Translations under genes and position numbers: made by a program
Notes under the pieces: model-generated
Database searches by the model: none
Told to the model about the DNA's origin: nothing
What the model saw: the letters and a program-made list of their open reading frames with translations, nothing else
NCBI GenBank assembly: GCA_028867785.1
Contig: JAGWFS010000012.1
Coordinates: 1-58,910, forward strand
Length of the DNA: 58,910 nt
Reading direction: 5' to 3'
Origin: Nitrososphaerota archaeon
GTDB taxonomy: Archaea > Thermoproteota > Nitrososphaeria > Nitrososphaerales > Nitrosopumilaceae
Shown here: positions 7,023 through 50,490 of the stretch, piece by piece
How positions within the stretch are numbered: the stretch's first letter is position 1
How the letters are laid out: each line of letters starts with the position of its first letter

Positions 7023-9533
7023 GTGCAAACGTGTCCCAAGTGCAAGTCCAAGATAGACGTGCAAAAAACTTTTAATCAAAAAATTCTGTTTAGCTGCACC
7101 AAATGCAAGATAGAAGACGTCATAGATTACAAGAAAAACATAGACGAGGCATACCTAGAGTTCCTGCTAAAGTTTGACAGCGGAGAGGTTCCAACCAAGA
7201 AGGAATCACAGAACTCACTTGAAAAGGAAGGCCTTTTGCAGAGCGAAGACGAGATAAAAAAAATGATAGGAAAAGCCAAGATAGGCGAGGTTACCAAAGA
7301 AGTTCTTTTTTCAAAAAAGCACTATGTGTCGCATTTCAGATCAATTGAAGAGCCAGACCCAGAGGCTGGCTCGACAGTAGAAGATTCTGGACTGGATGAG
7401 AGGATAACCAAAGTTCTGCAGTCAAAAGGAATTTCAAGTTTTTACAAGTTTCAAGAGGATTCCATTCATGACGTGTTGTTTGGAAAAAACATAGTCATAA
7501 CTGCACCCACAGCGTCTGGCAAGACAGAGGCCTTTGTCATACCAATACTGCAGAAGGTGTCAGACTCGAGAACGCCCGGACACAGCGTGCAGGCACTCTT
7601 TGTCTACCCGACAAAATCCCTCTCGCGCGACCAGCATCCAAAGATAAGGGACATTGCAGACAAGCTGAACCTAGGTGTTTCTGTTTTTGACGGAGACACC
7701 AAAGAGGACGAGAGGAGAAAGATCATTGATGTTCCTCCTGAGATACTAGTAACAAATTTTGATGTCATACATTACCACCTGTTGCACAGGACAAGGTTTG
7801 CGTCATTGCTAAACTCGGTCAAGTTTCTGGCAGTGGACGAGGCGCACGTATATTCAGGAATTTTCGGCTCAAATGTTCATTACATCATAAAGAGGCTAAA
7901 ACGAGTCTGCCCCAGGGTGCAGTTTGTAGCATCTTCTGCCACGCTTGAGAACGCACTTTCTTTTTGCCAGGACCTGTTTGGAACCGACATGACACTGGTG
8001 TCAGGATCTGGAAAGAAAGGACGGATAGAATTCTGCATGCTGTTTCCCTCTCTTGTCACCCAGCGAGCCCTTATGATTGACATACTAAAGAAACTCGCAA
8101 CAAAAAAGCACAAGACGCTTGTATTCAACAACTCTCACCTAAACTCTGAACTTTTAGCCCTTCAGGCAAGAAGGCAGAAGGTAGACATCAAGGTGCACAG
8201 GGCAGGACTGATGGCAAACTATAGAAGATCAGTTGAAAATCTTTTCAAAAGCGACAAGCTGCTCTCAATATCTGCAACTCCCACGCTTGAGCTTGGAATC
8301 GATGTTGGAAATGTTGACGGTGTGATATCCTCCACCATCCCGGTGAATCGCCTAGTCCAGAGAATTGGCAGGGCTGCAAGAAAGGGGCAGGAAGGGTATG
8401 CGTTTCTGGTTCTTGGAAACGATCCAATATCGCAGTACTACAAGAATCATCCAGACGATTACTTTGAGGACAAGGAACAGATCTACGTCGATCCAAAAAA
8501 TCCATTTGTCGAAGAGTTTCATGTGCTTGCCATGGCATGTGACAAACCCATTGCAAAACATGAGCTGCCAGAACACAGAAGCGCGATTCAGAGGCACCTA
8601 GATACTGGAAATCTCGTCATGGTTGAAAATAGATACGTCCCAAACTTTGCACAAGTAAAAAACATCCTAGAAGACTACAGCATAAGAGGAATTGGCAAGT
8701 CCATCAACATCTTTCTCAACGGCAAAAAAGTTGGAGACAGGATACTTCCAATTGCGCTAGAAGAGCTGCATCCGTCAGCAGTTTATTTCCTTGCAGGAGT
8801 CAGGTACCGCGTCAAAGAACTTGGATACCCAGACAACATGTCAGCCAAGCTGGAAATACTGCCAAGAAAATACCCCTATTACACAAAGGCTCTCACAGAA
8901 GAATGGCCTACAGTTGAAACAACCTATGAAAAACGCAATGCAAATGGAATCGAGGTTGCCTTTTGCAAGCTGCACATACAAAAGCGCGTGTATGGCTATG
9001 TCAACATTGAGCTTGGACATGAAGTCACACAGGGACAGAAAGTCACTCTTGAAAGACCCCTTGACTATGATTTTGTCACAAAGGGATTGGTCTTCAAAGC
9101 ACCAAGGCCCCTGGTCGAGATAGGCCGGGCAGAAAACGAGGAATACACCGAGGCAAGTGGGTACCATGCAACAGAACATGTTGTCATAGAGGGCAGCAAT
9201 ATGATTACGGGCGGAGTCTCCCAAGACCTCGGCGGAATATCGCTTGGCATGTCTGGGTTGATTTTTGTGTACGATTCTGCAATTGGAGGAAACGGTGCAA
9301 GCAAGGCCCTGTATGACAGGCTGGAAAAGGCATTTGAGCGCAGCCTCCACATAGTAAAAGAGTGTCCCTGCAAAAATGAGGCAGGATGCCCCAGGTGCAC
9401 GTTTTCCTACAGGTGTGGAAATAACAATGAGTATCTCCACAAGCTTGCGTCAGCCGAGATCCTGCAAAGAATTGCCGACGGAGAGACAACAGAGATAACA
9501 GAGCCCTCAGAGGGAGACAAGCCCCTGGTATAG
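7023..9533 (+). CDS. DEAH-box superfamily 2 helicase with DUF1998 (MrfA/YprA-like)
   Basis: 836 residues. An N-terminal zinc ribbon (C4, C7, C25, C28) precedes the helicase core: Walker A APTASGKTE (about 162-170), DEAH motif in AVDEAHVYSG (about 270), SSAT motif III and the C-terminal RecA domain ending in QRIGRAARKG. The C-terminus carries the DUF1998 cysteine cluster (CPCKNEAGCPRC) that binds zinc in bacterial MrfA, a DNA-repair helicase for mitomycin-type damage. A repair role here is inference. Start GTG at 7023, preceded by AT-rich divergent promoter sequence. Confidence 0.88.
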   Translation: MQTCPKCKSKIDVQKTFNQKILFSCTKCKIEDVIDYKKNIDEAYLEFLLKFDSGEVPTKKESQNSLEKEGLLQSEDEIKKMIGKAKIGEVTKEVLFSKKHYVSHFRSIEEPDPEAGSTVEDSGLDERITKVLQSKGISSFYKFQEDSIHDVLFGKNIVITAPTASGKTEAFVIPILQKVSDSRTPGHSVQALFVYPTKSLSRDQHPKIRDIADKLNLGVSVFDGDTKEDERRKIIDVPPEILVTNFDVIHYHLLHRTRFASLLNSVKFLAVDEAHVYSGIFGSNVHYIIKRLKRVCPRVQFVASSATLENALSFCQDLFGTDMTLVSGSGKKGRIEFCMLFPSLVTQRALMIDILKKLATKKHKTLVFNNSHLNSELLALQARRQKVDIKVHRAGLMANYRRSVENLFKSDKLLSISATPTLELGIDVGNVDGVISSTIPVNRLVQRIGRAARKGQEGYAFLVLGNDPISQYYKNHPDDYFEDKEQIYVDPKNPFVEEFHVLAMACDKPIAKHELPEHRSAIQRHLDTGNLVMVENRYVPNFAQVKNILEDYSIRGIGKSINIFLNGKKVGDRILPIALEELHPSAVYFLAGVRYRVKELGYPDNMSAKLEILPRKYPYYTKALTEEWPTVETTYEKRNANGIEVAFCKLHIQKRVYGYVNIELGHEVTQGQKVTLERPLDYDFVTKGLVFKAPRPLVEIGRAENEEYTEASGYHATEHVVIEGSNMITGGVSQDLGGISLGMSGLIFVYDSAIGGNGASKALYDRLEKAFERSLHIVKECPCKNEAGCPRCTFSYRCGNNNEYLHKLASAEILQRIADGETTEITEPSEGDKPLV

Positions 9534-16372: not shown

Positions 16373-16436
16373 ACTGAAGTTTCGTTTTGATTTATTGGAG
16401 AAATTTCAATTTCAAATTTCTTTAGGTCTTGAAGAA

Positions 16437-16676
16437 TTTTCATTTTCTGATGTTATTTTCCTTAAGGCGTCTGAATACAACAAATCCAACTCCTATCACG
16501 ATCATGACTACAACTATAGTTATGATGGTACTATCAAAAGAAATGAAGGTTATGCAGTTAGGCACAGGCGCATGTGGATTAAGCGTCAGATGTTCTTCAC
16601 AAGCAGCGTATGCTGATTTCAAAAAAGATACCATAGTAATACTAATTGCAATTATTGCAAGATGGCTAGTTTTCAT
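16437..16676 (-). repeat. 240-bp dispersed duplication, copy A
   Basis: Matches 49781-50020 with about six substitutions and no gap. The match covers the whole small gene and stops at its start codon. Same orientation, 33,344 bp apart. Confidence 0.9.
16440..16676 (-). CDS. Small secreted/membrane protein, duplicate copy A
   Basis: 78 residues: signal peptide (MKTSHLAIIAIS..., cleavage likely after AYA about 24), an external segment with two cysteines (CEEHLTLNPHAPVPNC), then a transmembrane helix (about 48-68) and basic tail RRLKENNIRK. No family recognised. Virtually identical to the gene at 49784-50020 (6 differences in 240 bp, 3 amino-acid changes). Last gene of the 19053-to-16440 minus-strand run, 22 bp behind the surface protein stop. 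Confidence 0.75.
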   Translation of the reverse strand: MKTSHLAIIAISITMVSFLKSAYAACEEHLTLNPHAPVPNCITFISFDSTIITIVVVMIVIGVGFVVFRRLKENNIRK

Positions 16677-16698
16677 AATTTAACAACACCTCATAATA

Positions 16699-18078
16699 TC
16701 ACTCAGACACAGAGATCTCTATTATGGCAGAACCTGAACTAAATGGAATTGTCAATGTATTGTTTGAAGCCGAAGTGGTCTGCACATATCGTACTGGATA
16801 GTTGTCTACCATGACAAAGAACTGGTATGGCTCTATGTGTTGTGGAGAATCAAGCAGTTGGCGCGGTATTGTAACAACTAGGTCCCCGTTGCCATTTGCC
16901 GTAAGATATATCTCAAGTGCTGCCCTTGTATTGTCATATTTTGCAGAATCCAACATGCCTCCTGTTATGTCATAGGATATTGTAAAGTTGGAGTTTTCCA
17001 CGTCCATTACATTTGAAGGAGTGGGTATAACACTTGGAACTGACTCGTTTGGTCCCTTTGGTTCCAGTGCCATCTCACGGTATATGTAAGATGTCTGATT
17101 TGCACAGTCACCAGCCAAGGGATAGGTTGCATTGATTACAGTTAGCATTCTTGTGTCTATTGCAATATCGGCATGCCATCCCTTGTCACATGATATCTTT
17201 GGACTGCCAGAATTAGGCGGGAGATAAAGCTGGAGCTGTGAAAAGTGAACCTTTCCAACATCTATCGAATTTCCTCCAACAAACTCCCATCCAGACTCTG
17301 ACCAGTTCTTTAACGGTGCAAGATTCATGATATCATAAAAGAACCTGTCCTGCTGCTCTTGGGTAGAGTATCCCTTATCAAGCAGGTGCGATATCGGGTT
17401 TACTGACCATCCTCTCAGGACAAGCTTTGGCAGATCGTCTGGGGTTATGCATGCTGGCAGACCGTTCTCTCTTTTGATTACAAGAGTGAATCCATCTGCA
17501 CATTTTACATCTTCTGCCTTGATTCCGGATTTGAACTGCTTCAACGGTGAATCAATTTGAGTTATGACAGGATGGTTCACATAGTTAAGAGACGGGATGC
17601 CAGTATCGTGGTTGTATATCATAAACTGGAACGATTTTGAAACTGTCTTTTCAACATTTGATTGTGATGTTTGATTCCATATATCATATCGGAAAGTTAT
17701 GGTCGCATTTGTATTTCCAATCTCTGCTGCATTATAAACAAGATCAATGTAAGGGCTTACCGCAGTAATATGTGCACCCGAGTCTATTTTCTCCAATTTC
17801 ATATCAGTGGTACAAGTGATGTTGTTCTCGTTGATATGAACATGATTATCAAAGGATGTAGAGAAGGGCGCCTCGCATACACCGTGTTCAACAAATATTG
17901 TGCTTGGGGAATAGTTGACCAAAGTTGCAGTAACTGTGAAGTTATCTCCAACTAGAATTGTAGTTGGTTGTACCTTGATATTTTGAACGTACATATCATC
18001 GTACGCGTGAGCCTGGCCAAGATTTAGGAATAGAAAGAAAACCACGATTATGATGAGTGATAGATGCAGTGTCTTCAT
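16699..18078 (-). CDS. Secreted surface protein with C-x16-C/RGW module
   Basis: 459 residues from ATG 18078, the start that matches paralogues (an in-frame ATG at 18084 adds two residues). Signal peptide MKTLHLSLIIIVV...QAHA. A beta-sandwich about 30-150 begins DDMYVQNIKVQP, like the protein at 46438. The module spans about 176-225 (C-x16-C, then LVLRGW). A PepSY-like central stretch (about 226-340, with GWHADIAIDT) resembles 56333. The C-terminal beta domain (about 365-459; FFVMVDNYPV, LTIPFSSGSAIIEI) recurs in 50745 and 52030 and resembles the domain before thaumarchaeal PEFG tails, but no tail is present here. Many N-x-S/T sequons. The gene lies 9 bp behind the Cdc48-N-like gene. Function unknown. 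Confidence 0.8.
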   Translation of the reverse strand: MKTLHLSLIIIVVFFLFLNLGQAHAYDDMYVQNIKVQPTTILVGDNFTVTATLVNYSPSTIFVEHGVCEAPFSTSFDNHVHINENNITCTTDMKLEKIDSGAHITAVSPYIDLVYNAAEIGNTNATITFRYDIWNQTSQSNVEKTVSKSFQFMIYNHDTGIPSLNYVNHPVITQIDSPLKQFKSGIKAEDVKCADGFTLVIKRENGLPACITPDDLPKLVLRGWSVNPISHLLDKGYSTQEQQDRFFYDIMNLAPLKNWSESGWEFVGGNSIDVGKVHFSQLQLYLPPNSGSPKISCDKGWHADIAIDTRMLTVINATYPLAGDCANQTSYIYREMALEPKGPNESVPSVIPTPSNVMDVENSNFTISYDITGGMLDSAKYDNTRAALEIYLTANGNGDLVVTIPRQLLDSPQHIEPYQFFVMVDNYPVRYVQTTSASNNTLTIPFSSGSAIIEISVSE

Positions 18079-44705: not shown

Positions 44706-44767
44706 TTTATAATTTTTTGGTAAACCTTTTATTTTCTGCCTTGTTGCTAGTCAACTCTAATCCTAAT

Positions 44768-44800
44768 GTTTTTTAGTCAACTACAATCCAGTGGTCTAAA
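44768..44800 (-). repeat. Stop-associated intergenic element
   Basis: Minus strand TTTAGACCACTGGATTGTAG then TTGACTAAAAAAC. Lies 8 bp downstream of the stop of the frameshifted gene at 44808. Confidence 0.65.
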
Positions 44801-44807
44801 CTTGAAA

Positions 44808-45679
44808 CTATGAAGTAATGGAAGACGTGGAATTAAAACAAGCAAAAACTTCCCTCATACTTGCATGATATATAGGAGACGCATCGGTTCCACAATAAAG
44901 TATTCTCCCTATGTTTCTGTTTTCAGAATCAAATTTGTCTACAATGATTATCTGGTTGTTGATTCCTCTGCCCATGGCTAGATATTCTACATCATTTTTG
45001 CTACTAGGAAAGTTTGGATCTTTCTTGAGGTACCAATCAGTGGGAAACGAATTGACGCATACATGGCTATACATATGCATCATCATCGATACTTCTGGAA
45101 AGTTTTGCGTCTTGTTGATTAATTCAAACTCTGCTTCGTTTCCAAGAAAAGTGCCTTTGAGTGTTGGGTCGACATAAGACATTTTTCCATTTGTCAATAC
45201 TACATAGTAGACCAAGTAAACTATTTCATGTCCATTGTTTGATTGTTCGTGACCTCCTAGTGGACAATCGGCAATGGGAAAAATATTACCAAGTCTTGTC
45301 CGCTCGATGCATCATAAATTGTACTGCCGACTTGCCCTCCAGCACTTGCCTCTTCTGTGAGCGGTACTTTCCACACGTATTGGTCATGTGGATAGTTCGG
45401 TAGATTCTCTTGGTACAAATCTGTATCTCGGAGTGTGTTTTGGTTAACTACATAGACTTGGCCTGTTTTATGTATGTGTAACAATTCCATGTTGTTGAGA
45501 TCATAGCTGGACAGATTAGGGTCAAATTTTTTCATCATTATGATAAGAGTGTCCTTATCTACAAGTTCTGGAATCGGTCCTTGGCTTGAGGTTCTTACAT
45601 AAATTAACAAGAAAGCAAAGACTACACCAATCACAAGAAGTGACAACGTAGAAATTCGAACAATAGTTTTAGTTTTCAA
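44808..45679 (-). pseudogene. Secreted/anchored protein gene split by a frameshift
   Basis: Frame 1 (TTG 45679 to 45257) begins with a signal anchor (MKTKTIVRISTLSLLVIG) and ends FFPLPIVH. Frame 2 to 44808 continues naturally: adding one T to the five-T run at 45279-45283 (A on the plus strand) gives ...VIFFPIADCPLGGHE and then an uninterrupted path into the second frame (YYVVLTNGKMSYV...). The rebuilt protein would be about 290 residues with three to four cysteines. No recognised family and no C-x16-C module. The break may be a real mutation, a switch, or an error in the sequence. Class A promoter upstream. Confidence 0.72.
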
Positions 45680-45703: not shown

Positions 45704-45745
45704 ACTTTAAAAAAGTGGTGTAGATTTTCACAGTAAGATTCTTCC
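45704..45745 (-). promoter_or_regulatory. Class A promoter (44808 gene)
   Basis: Minus strand GGAAGAATCTTACTGTGAAA, then ATCTACACCACTTTTTTAAAG. TATA centre 31 bp before TTG 45679. Best-preserved form together with 49302. Confidence 0.72.
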
Positions 45746-45779
45746 AAAATCAAGCCTACTCATGCATTTCCGAACAAAT

Positions 45780-45813
45780 GTTTTTTAGTCAACTGCAATC
45801 CAGTGGTCTAAAT
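45780..45813 (-). repeat. Stop-associated intergenic element
   Basis: Minus strand TTTAGACCACTGGATTGCAG then TTGACTAAAAAAC; the TAG is the stop codon of the 45808 gene. About 115 bp from here to the next promoter are shared with 49302-49410. Confidence 0.7.
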
Positions 45814-46434
45814 ACGAATTTTTATCTTATAAAATACAATTAGTGATGTAATGCCTATTAATAAAACCGGAATTGTGAGAGGAAATTCTTGTACGGTTTG
45901 CGAGTTAGATTCAGGTAATGAAAAAGTTGCGTATAAGCTACTAGATAACTCTGCTCTTATTGGCGGAGGATATATTGTACAGCCATGGTCTACAAATCCA
46001 AACAATAAGACAGATGGATTGATTTGAGAGCTATTAAGCCCTACCACAAGAGGATATATTCCACATGTATCTGGGAGGGAAAATTCAAAGAGTCCTTTTA
46101 GATTGTTCTTTGCAGTTATGGTATAGTCTATCACAGTACTATTGTTATCAAGCACAATGGAAGTTTTATTTGGTATCATCGATATATCGGGTACGTTATA
46201 GTGCAGATTGGATTCTGTTTGATTTGTATCAAAGACATTTAACGGTGCAAGTATCATGGTTTGATTGTGTAGACTCGTACTGAATGTTACGTACAAGTGT
46301 CCTACAGAATTAGGTTCCATATACAATATTCTTCTGGTATGTGATGACAGTCCATATACCGGAGATATCAGCATAAAAGATAGTAGTATGATTCCAATAC
46401 TGATTGAGAAAATTGAAAGGTGTAGTATTTTCAT
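45808..46434 (-). CDS. Secreted single-domain protein with QEF-type C-terminal anchor
   Basis: 208 residues. Signal MKILHLSIFSISIGIIL. One domain (about 30-160; LYMEPNSVGHLYVTFS, YTITAKNNLKGLFEFSL, CGIYPLVVGLNSSQINPS) is the same as the C-terminal domain of 23948 and two copies in 56333. The tail VQEFPLTIPVLLIGITSL, IVFYKIKIRI is homologous to the PEF tails of 31746 and 33218, with Q in place of P. Third gene of the 49277-to-45808 operon, 3 bp behind 46438. Confidence 0.8.
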   Translation of the reverse strand: MKILHLSIFSISIGIILLSFMLISPVYGLSSHTRRILYMEPNSVGHLYVTFSTSLHNQTMILAPLNVFDTNQTESNLHYNVPDISMIPNKTSIVLDNNSTVIDYTITAKNNLKGLFEFSLPDTCGIYPLVVGLNSSQINPSVLLFGFVDHGCTIYPPPIRAELSSSLYATFSLPESNSQTVQEFPLTIPVLLIGITSLIVFYKIKIRI

Positions 46435-46437
46435 TCC

Positions 46438-47691
46438 TTAACCTCCGGTAGAGTTGGTAACTGTAAAGTGTCGTATTGCGACATGTCCCCATTCATCCCC
46501 GCCAACTACTGTATAAACGCCAGAATTGAAGGGCTGGAAATTTCCATTTTCCAAGACATGACTGTATGCTACATTATATCTCATTTCTATCATTTTAGGA
46601 CATGAAAACACATAGGAATCTGTTGACTCGCATTCTGTGATAGCCCTACTGCCCAGTGACTGGAATGCAAAGCTCTTGAAAGAGGCGTTGAAAGGACCAC
46701 ATGGAGGTTGGAAATAAAATGATAGTGACTTTTTGTCTGTCATGTTTTGCTCGGTATAGTAACCATCCAGTATTGTAATACCAATTGGTAGAAAGGAGCA
46801 GCCGCCAGAACCCAGACCATTTATTGGCCAGTTATCCTGCACAGGCAAAGTTAGTTGCTGAGGACTAGTGTTGTTAAGTGAGACATCTATTCCTATTGCC
46901 TGTCCAGATTGTATTGAGGTAGAATTTGTAGAAAGATACAGTTTGAGTGCAGATAACGAGGTTTGATTTGTAGTTACTATTTCCTTTGCCCATCCTCTAG
47001 CCATTAATTTCTGAGCCGCATCAGGTTTCACACATGCAGGAAAATCATCCTCTGATTTTATTACAAGAGTTAATCCATCTGCACACTTGACATCTTCAGC
47101 CTTGATTCCTGACTTGAACTGCTGTAGAGGATCAAGAGCAATCCTAGCAACAGTGCCACCCCCGCCATAGGCATTTTCGGGTTTAGACCCAGTCTGATTT
47201 GAAATTGCAAACTGGAATGGTTGCGATATTTTCCCATCGTAGCCAGGTTGGGCAGGATCGGTCAGGTTGAATATGTGATACGAAAATCTAATTTTTCCAT
47301 TGGCCGTTCCGGACTCTGTTGCTATAAAAGTAGCAGTATAATCAGGAGCCGTCGTAGTAAAGTTCTGCCCGGGATCTAATTTTTGGTACCAGCCTACCCC
47401 GGCACAGAACAAACCGCTTTTTGTTTTTATTTTGGCATGATAATCAAAGGTTACAGTCAAAATTTCCGCTTGTTTATCTGTAGCGGAGCATTTGCCCCCT
47501 TCCACCCATATTGGGCCAGTTGAATTGTTTACAAGTGTTGCCGTAACAGTGAATGTATCTCCGAGTTTAACAGCAGATGGTTGTACTTTGATATTTTGAA
47601 CGTACATATCATCGTCCGCGTGAGCCTGGCCAAGATTTAGGAATAAAAAGAAAACCACGATTATGATGAGTGAAAGATGCAGCGTTTTCAT
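46438..47691 (-). CDS. Secreted surface protein with C-x16-C module and GDEWG domain
   Basis: 417 residues. The first 55 residues (MKTLHLSLIIIVV..., DDMYVQNIKVQP) are nearly identical to the 16699 protein, also at DNA level (about 110 bp), but later parts differ. Beta-sandwich to about 165, module about 186-235 (MARGWA), then the GDEWG domain (about 240-417; QSGQAIGIDVSLNNT, VVGGDEWGHVAIRHFTV) shared with 29127. Middle gene of a tightly packed operon (2 bp and 3 bp gaps). A clear example of domain exchange between paralogues. Confidence 0.83.
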   Translation of the reverse strand: MKTLHLSLIIIVVFFLFLNLGQAHADDDMYVQNIKVQPSAVKLGDTFTVTATLVNNSTGPIWVEGGKCSATDKQAEILTVTFDYHAKIKTKSGLFCAGVGWYQKLDPGQNFTTTAPDYTATFIATESGTANGKIRFSYHIFNLTDPAQPGYDGKISQPFQFAISNQTGSKPENAYGGGGTVARIALDPLQQFKSGIKAEDVKCADGLTLVIKSEDDFPACVKPDAAQKLMARGWAKEIVTTNQTSLSALKLYLSTNSTSIQSGQAIGIDVSLNNTSPQQLTLPVQDNWPINGLGSGGCSFLPIGITILDGYYTEQNMTDKKSLSFYFQPPCGPFNASFKSFAFQSLGSRAITECESTDSYVFSCPKMIEMRYNVAYSHVLENGNFQPFNSGVYTVVGGDEWGHVAIRHFTVTNSTGG

Positions 47692-49301: not shown

Positions 49302-49345
49302 GGTTTAAAAAACTGGCGTATATTTTCACAGTAAGATTCTTCGAA
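49302..49345 (-). promoter_or_regulatory. Class A promoter (47694 operon)
   Basis: Minus strand CGAAGAATCTTACTGTGAAA, then ATATACGCCAGTTTTTTAAACC. TATA centre 30 bp before GTG 49277, consistent with a leaderless message. Confidence 0.75.
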
Positions 49346-49378
49346 AATCAAGCTTATTCGTGTATTCCCGGACAAATG

Positions 49379-49410
49379 TTTTTTAGTCAACTGCAATACG
49401 ATGGTCTAAA
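49379..49410 (-). repeat. Stop-associated intergenic element
   Basis: Minus strand TTTAGACCATCGTATTGCAG then TTGACTAAAA; contains the TAG stop of the 49406 gene. Confidence 0.65.
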
Positions 49411-49689
49411 CATGAGTATGCCTGAAACTAGCATTTTTTGGTTTTCGCAACCAATGGATCAAGAAACCTATGCTACCAATTGTCATCACAATTCCGCCAT
49501 AAATTGTTAAATAAATAAGAGATACAATCTGCCCATCAGCGCATCCATATGGCAATCCCCTTGGAGGAAACAGTTGTGGAAGAATTCCATGTACACATTC
49601 TAACAGACTGTGCTCGTATAGATTATACCCATATGTTGTAAAAAAAGAACCCCTATTATCGAAATTATCAAAAGATACAAAGTTTTCAA
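49406..49689 (-). pseudogene. Small membrane protein gene with a frameshift in a T7 run
   Basis: From TTG 49689 the frame reads MKTLYLLIISIIGVLF, the usual signal sequence, but stops after 29 codons. One extra T in the seven-T run (plus-strand A at 49640-49646) joins it to the other frame, which reads TTYGYNLYEHSLLECVHGIL, then a transmembrane helix (LIYLTIYGGIVMTIGSIGFL) and HWLRKPK. The rebuilt protein has about 94 residues, two membrane helices, similar in plan to 50487. A class A promoter 31 bp before TTG supports this start. Could be inactivation, slippage control or a sequencing error. Confidence 0.7.
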
Positions 49690-49713
49690 AATACACCATC
49701 ATTCATCCTTCAA

Positions 49714-49752
49714 ACCTTAAAAAACTGACGTAGATTTTCATCGTAATTCATC
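49714..49752 (-). promoter_or_regulatory. Class A promoter (49406 gene)
   Basis: Minus strand ACGATGAAAATCTACGTCAG, then TTTTTTAAGG. TATA centre 31 bp before TTG 49689. Confidence 0.7.
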
Positions 49753-49780
49753 ATATAGAGTAAAATGTAGTCAATCGTCA

Positions 49781-50020
49781 TTTTCATTTTCTGATGTTAT
49801 TTTCCTTAAGGCGTCTGAATACAACAAATCCAACTCCTATCACGATCATGATGACAACTATAGTTATGATGGCACTATCAAAAGAAAAGAAGGTTATGCA
49901 GTTAGGCACAGGCGCATGTGGATTAAGCGTCAGATGTTCTTCACAAGCAGCGTATGCTGATTTCAAAAAAGATACCATAGTAATACTGATAGCAATTATT
50001 GCAAGATGGCTAGTTTTCAT
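49781..50020 (-). repeat. 240-bp dispersed duplication, copy B
   Basis: Partner of 16437-16676; six mismatches. The match covers the small gene from its start codon through its stop. Confidence 0.9.
49784..50020 (-). CDS. Small secreted/membrane protein, duplicate copy B
   Basis: 78 residues from ATG 50020, which overlaps the TGA of the 50017 gene. Same signal peptide, two-cysteine external segment and transmembrane helix as the copy at 16440; the changes are I to F, T to A and V to I, all conservative. Here it is the last of four minus-strand genes. The operon context differs from copy A, so the gene was copied without its neighbours. Confidence 0.8.
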   Translation of the reverse strand: MKTSHLAIIAISITMVSFLKSAYAACEEHLTLNPHAPVPNCITFFSFDSAIITIVVIMIVIGVGFVVFRRLKENNIRK

Positions 50021-50490
50021 TTTAAGCACCTTTGTCGGTCCAACGCTGTCTCAAACGGAACCAGACTCTGATTATTCTTGTAATATGCCTGCCAGTATAG
50101 AGCCCCCATTGAAGAAATCCCTGCCGTCGTCGTACATACGAGTCTTATTTTATCAACCTGACGCAGGCTTGAATTCATCGGAATAACAAGCATGAGAGTG
50201 GAATATTGGGAGGATTTCAGACTGCCACCTCCGATAACGGTAGAATTAACCGAATAAAGTACCGCAGTGTAGGGTCCGTATTGATTTGAAACAGAAACTA
50301 CTGCATTTGGATACTTTGCAAGAAATGCCTTTACAAAATCAAGATCGGCCGTAGCACCAATCACGTCTTCTCCCGCAGGGGCGGAGTGGTGAATATTGGA
50401 TGGTGTGGATGTAAGAGACAATGCTAGAAACAACGCAAGGGCGGCAACAATACCACCTCCTGCGATTAAAGAAAGACGTATAGGTTTCAT
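50017..50490 (-). CDS. Secreted small protein with KYPN motif
   Basis: 157 residues from ATG 50490 (overlaps the TGA of 50487). Signal anchor MKPIRLSLIAGGGIVAALAL, then LDFVKAFLAKYPNAVV (about 50-65), like 47694, and a beta-rich domain ending in DRQRCLK. Two cysteines. No module. Coupled with its neighbours through ATGA on both sides. Confidence 0.75.
   Translation of the reverse strand: MKPIRLSLIAGGGIVAALALFLALSLTSTPSNIHHSAPAGEDVIGATADLDFVKAFLAKYPNAVVSVSNQYGPYTAVLYSVNSTVIGGGSLKSSQYSTLMLVIPMNSSLRQVDKIRLVCTTTAGISSMGALYWQAYYKNNQSLVPFETALDRQRCLK

Follow-up and report, generated by a model that had tools for sequence, protein, structure and literature searches.

A probable recent frameshift in a two-helix membrane-protein gene belonging to a leader-linked gene set of a Nitrososphaerota archaeon

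Introduction

Genes that are split between two reading frames have been described under at least three headings that are pertinent to the locus considered here. First, lone frameshifts validated by homology are expected to reflect sequencing errors more frequently than genuine indels (PMC3711429). Second, phase variation by means of homopolymer tracts in the 5' region has been proposed for prokaryotes generally, in an analysis that includes 18 archaeal genomes (PMC2831843). Third, -1 frameshifting on the heptamer A-AAA-AAT is established for fucA1 of Saccharolobus solfataricus, where it is accompanied by a stem-loop and rare codons; this is described as evidence of -1 frameshifting in archaea, its use by other genes not being known apart from reports on archaeal viruses (PMC8211752).

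Here we analyze a small gene in a window of 58,910 nucleotides, i.e. the entire stretch of contig JAGWFS010000012.1 (assembly GCA_028867785.1) under study; the reading frame of the gene breaks in or close to seven consecutive T. In the literature on Nitrosotalea, judging by the entries listed, there is nothing relevant on frameshifts, and searches for leaderless, or for genome together with surface, paralog and pseudogene, returned nothing.

Results

Architecture of the focal gene and its shared leader

The coordinates of the focal gene and of the elements around it are collected in Table 1. A TTG-started signal, corresponding to helix 1, followed by a frame break is indeed found on the minus strand, as the preliminary description had it, with the break at or near the T7 run. 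Beyond this run frame B continues for 79 codons free of stops.

Table 1. Features of the focal gene and its surroundings in the window
Feature	Coordinates	Strand	Remarks
Focal gene, a small two-helix membrane-protein gene		-	Frame break in or close to the T7 run
TTG start codon	49687..49689	-	Predicted first codon of a putative leaderless transcript
Frame A: LKTLYLLIISIIGVLFLQHMGIIYTSTVC, helix 1	49600..49689	-	29 codons, then TAG; stop at 49602-49600
T7 run	49640..49646	-	A7 on the plus strand; likeliest site of the frame break
U-UUU-UUA heptamer	49639..49645	-	In the X-XXY-YYZ phase of frame A; a -1 slip into frame B would be possible in principle
Frame B: Cys-containing loop, helix 2, C-terminus	49406..49702	-	Open frame; 98 aa
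TATA-like box TTTTTTAAG of the shared leader	49716..49724	-	26 nt before the TTG
112-nt stretch from gene stop over 3' end to the next gene's promoter	49304..49415	-	87% like 45706-45817
Second broken leader gene (sister gene)	44808..45679	-	Three relatives have it intact; gap of one base between 45300 and 45299

The leader upstream of the TTG recurs in the window and elsewhere in the genome in a characteristic arrangement: a box of the form TTTTTTAA(A/G), followed by a start codon and then by a Lys or Arg codon. This TATA-like box is common to about two dozen genes of the genome. We detected 28 such boxes in 790 kb of the genome (window included), and in 15 of them the start codon with its Lys/Arg codon lies exactly 26 nt from the box, which is also precisely the distance of the focal TTG. 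More generally, start codons with an adjacent Lys/Arg codon are counted 21 times at 23-27 nt from a box versus 4 times at all other distances between 5 and 80 nt. A spacing of 26 nt is what would be expected where a TATA box directs leaderless transcription in archaea, and transcription of the focal gene is accordingly predicted to be leaderless, starting from the TTG. A leader and TTG start of the same kind are present in an intact homolog, L070 from genome G024.

Frame B has an ATG of its own at 49702, 13 nt upstream of the TTG, which is not conserved in the other leaders. Translation of frame B from this codon was considered and rejected: the ATG is upstream of the TTG, it is missing from the TTG leaders at 45679, 53385 and 21171, and the N-terminus that it would add has no match among the homologs. 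Given the fixed 26-nt spacing, the ATG would lie upstream of the predicted transcript and the start would be the TTG.

Both halves of the gene belong to a single family of two-helix proteins

The family to which the gene belongs comprises, in the genus of the window (37 genomes), proteins of 70-110 residues with an MKTL start, helix 1, a GYGxYE-like motif, a Cys-containing loop and helix 2. A profile built from eight homologs, with the window left out, recovers the loop, helix 2 and C-terminus of the focal gene in frame B with E=6.9e-8, over model positions 15-79, the match starting where the T run lies; as gauged by this profile, the two frames as one gene are more than a chance pairing. When frame A is placed before frame B, the score of 31.9 bits rises to about 43 (43.4 at best), although any MKTL-like hydrophobic start would probably supply a part of this gain. 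The expectation that reading across the break yields a two-helix protein thus holds. A break at or near the T7 is likewise supported. The more specific claim, that the gene breaks exactly in the run, is likely but falls short of proof: the best junction lies anywhere in codons 12-21, and the profile scores for the T7 and for a neighboring G4 are indistinguishable.

Comparison with 23 tabulated homologous loci shows that helix 1 and the loop share one frame in all of them and that both helices do so in 22, the remaining one (L012) being interrupted by an assembly N. The focal gene, unlike these 22, does not hold helix 1 and helix 2 in one frame, i.e. its frame is disrupted relative to intact homologs. 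Homologs sharing the stop of the focal gene, which the preliminary description named as a refuting observation, do not occur among the 23 loci. The tabulation sets aside weak or partial matches (L016, L030, L038, L054, the second ORF of L064, L073-L076 and L084), second copies (L056-L058, L066 and L077-L081), further fragments of L012, weaker places such as those in G010:C257, G033 and G006, and L083, a degenerate copy in G024 with three stops (two TAG and one TAA). The same genome carries the intact L070, which is 30% identical to the focal read-through.

The remaining 36 genomes of this genus yielded no close ortholog; even G031, the closest genome (91% DNA identity over 7023-9533), is devoid of a focal-gene match. 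As a consequence, comparison does not tell whether a base is missing or extra. Within a sample of 151 genomes of the taxonomic family, covering 22 genera, the two-helix proteins occur in this genus only, in 12 of the genomes. Searches for plasmid relatives and for viral contigs carrying the surroundings of the T run found none. A short match in Klebsiella indica (L184), the only hit in the scan of genome contigs, was taken for chance and left unused. Neither Pfam nor NCBIfam has a family for frame B of the window, in contrast to the leader-bearing intact homolog L070, which passes the cut-off of DUF3185 (PF11381) with 35.4 bits against 25.3; the two other relatives scanned remain below it with 15.6 and 17.7 bits.

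The stop-free course of frame B over 79 codons, and its fit to the family up to near the C-terminus, imply that the break is young or that the product is still made somehow, which counts to some degree against a silenced gene.

A second broken gene and the leader-linked gene set

The preliminary description placed a second break in another T run nearby and considered on/off switching by slippage across the pair. The sister gene does carry a break, but alignment with three intact relatives locates it at a one-base gap situated 16 nt before a T5 run (45279-45283) that has five T in all four aligned sequences, which rules it out as a second break in a T run. The intact one-frame homologs of its second half, in G028, G033 and G031, have 98, 90 and 90% protein identity and open frames of 299, 343 and 299 codons, respectively. 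Because the sister lesion is a one-base difference outside any T run, ordinary indels evidently occur in this cluster.

In a separate observation, the broken sister gene (44765-45679; L186, L187, L188) is 91% identical at the DNA level in G033, where the core gene at 7023-9533 is only 74% identical, and the match extends approximately from the start codon to behind the stop. This pattern of sequence identity suggests that leader-linked genes may be exchanged between species.

Both genes are situated in a stretch of the window (16429-58910) with genes for exported or membrane proteins that have one promoter box in common, always spaced 26 nt from the start, together with an MK(T/I)LxL N-terminus and an element conserved in the 3' or intergenic region. 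A small membrane-protein gene with Cys residues is present twice (49780-50025 and 16436-16683), the copies being 97% identical in DNA with both frames intact. Two larger genes of the set are 95% identical over 92 nt at their 5' ends (47600-47691 and 17987-18078), for which gene conversion or duplication is a possible source.

Of the 24 leader genes that the 790-kb sample contains, four are broken, namely those at 49689, 45679, C222:81331 and C272:68094; contigs were sampled for leader hits, and the 24 genes per 790 kb do not represent a genome-wide density. The latter two (L098-L099 and L121) are broken soon after the signal, and C222:81331 retains remnants in several frames. The corresponding figure among conserved ORFs is one frameshift candidate in 257, a rough contrast as the criteria differ.

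Sequencing error

Systematic sequencing error, raised in the preliminary description as the other explanation for breaks in T runs, finds no support when 1182 ORFs with a minimum length of 100 codons, taken from 1.2 Mb of the relative G032, are compared with 790 kb of this genome. The 257 ORFs with judgeable matches (69,898 aa, 209 kb) contain a single frameshift candidate, whose junction has no run of at least five bases nearby. The compared 209 kb include 116, 31 and 4 A/T runs of 7, 8 and 9 bases, respectively (151 in total), and none of them is broken. A general run-length error in the assembly is therefore unlikely; the survey is blind to breaks within about 25 residues of gene ends, and read depth at the T7 site is outside its reach.

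A local error, confined to the T7 run of a gene that is intact in the organism, has to be weighed separately. Homopolymers are the usual place of sequencing errors, the gene is otherwise open to its end and its homologs are intact. To this may be added the tendency of lone validated frameshifts to be errors (PMC3711429), which also counts against a silenced gene. Against it stand the intact state of all 151 A/T runs of 7-9 bases, the single candidate of any kind in 209 kb, and the window's other runs of at least seven bases, which include an A8 at 7256 within an intact ORF of 836 codons. On balance, we consider a local error unlikely.

Phase variation and recoding

That the T7/U-UUU-UUA site is a working point of slippage, be it in replication, transcription or translation, which would make this a phase-variable or recoded archaeal envelope gene, appears rather improbable when the evidence on its different versions is taken together.

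With respect to replication slippage, the locus resembles the proposal of PMC2831843 in that an envelope-type gene carries a T run in its 5' region, yet a run of at least five T in the first 75 nt is found in none of the 23 homologous loci. Only three of the 24 leader genes have a T6 or T7 in this region, and the other leader gene with a T7, C222:81331, stays in frame through that run (located in its signal) and is broken further down. Seven bases are moreover a short tract for a phase switch. Coding DNA has fewer long T runs than 20 synonymous shuffles of 622 ORFs would predict: T7 runs number 38 against 53.8 expected, and those of T8 or more 7 against 23.6. It thus looks as if such runs were being avoided, not exploited. 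Among A runs in the 790 kb sampled from this genome, A6 (709 versus 480 expected) and A7 (265 versus 170) are in excess, and A8 or more (65 versus 88) are in deficit. With the sister break lying outside a T run as well, the idea of on/off switching across two T-run breaks is not sustained, and a contingency gene switched by slippage in the T7 alone is very unlikely.

As for -1 slippage on U-UUU-UUA, by the ribosome or by RNA polymerase, the heptamer, a feature that the preliminary description does not mention, has the canonical X-XXY-YYZ phase relative to frame A, and a slip would enter frame B; an archaeal precedent is provided by fucA1 of Saccharolobus solfataricus, most relatives of which are full-length (PMC8211752). 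Among 747 long ORFs, some of which are possibly shadow frames, this heptamer is found 22 times in that phase, such that it is not special alone, and it is the natural by-product of a T run in such a phase. Downstream folding is no better than that of shuffles (z 0.07), with z ranging from -1.03, the best value at a 5-nt spacer, to 1.00 over spacers of 4-10 nt, for folds free of pseudoknots. The heptamer is in addition absent from all 23 homologous loci. Expression of the gene as it stands by such slippage is the least probable of the readings considered.

Discussion

A single recent frameshift, silencing a dispensable member of a fast-changing gene set and leaving a young pseudogene copy, would account for all of the observations, and we assign it a probability of roughly 0.68. 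The shared leader and the position of the TTG, the homology of both halves, the intact frames of the relatives and the want of a general frameshift error in the assembly are the observations on which it builds. A slip of one base, most likely in the T7 run, would have broken the two-helix gene, such that from the TTG only a 29-residue peptide with helix 1 could be produced. Loss of function is thus predicted from the sequence, and the break would presumably be fixed in the population. The silenced copy would then be one of several broken members in a fast-changing cluster of leader-linked genes for exported or membrane proteins.

In its present form the focal gene is a frameshifted gene of the ordinary kind, and the notion of a switch formed by two T-run breaks in the cluster falls away. 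Slippage at the T7 site would, if true, be a rare archaeal case. A by-product of the analysis may be worth more, namely a group of genes linked by their promoter, in which the spacing is fixed at 26 nt and the share of broken members is raised.

Among known systems, archaeal fucA1 (PMC8211752) is comparable in the correctly phased slippery heptamer at an overlap of two frames and in its full-length relatives; it differs in that the focal heptamer is U-UUU-UUA instead of A-AAA-AAT, lacks a stem-loop signal, is unconserved and is known here from sequence alone. The genes with 5' tracts proposed to vary in phase (PMC2831843, which cites swrA of B. subtilis and flhA of C. coli) resemble the focal gene, an envelope-type gene whose 5' region has a poly(T) followed by a frame break, whereas the focal tract is not conserved in homologs and T runs are depleted in the genome. 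The lone validated frameshifts and pseudogenes of PMC3711429 have in common with it a single homology-validated transition of frame, the lack of a conserved frameshift site and intact relatives. What sets the focal gene apart from that class is its place in a leader-linked set with other broken members, in an assembly whose error rate was measured to be low.
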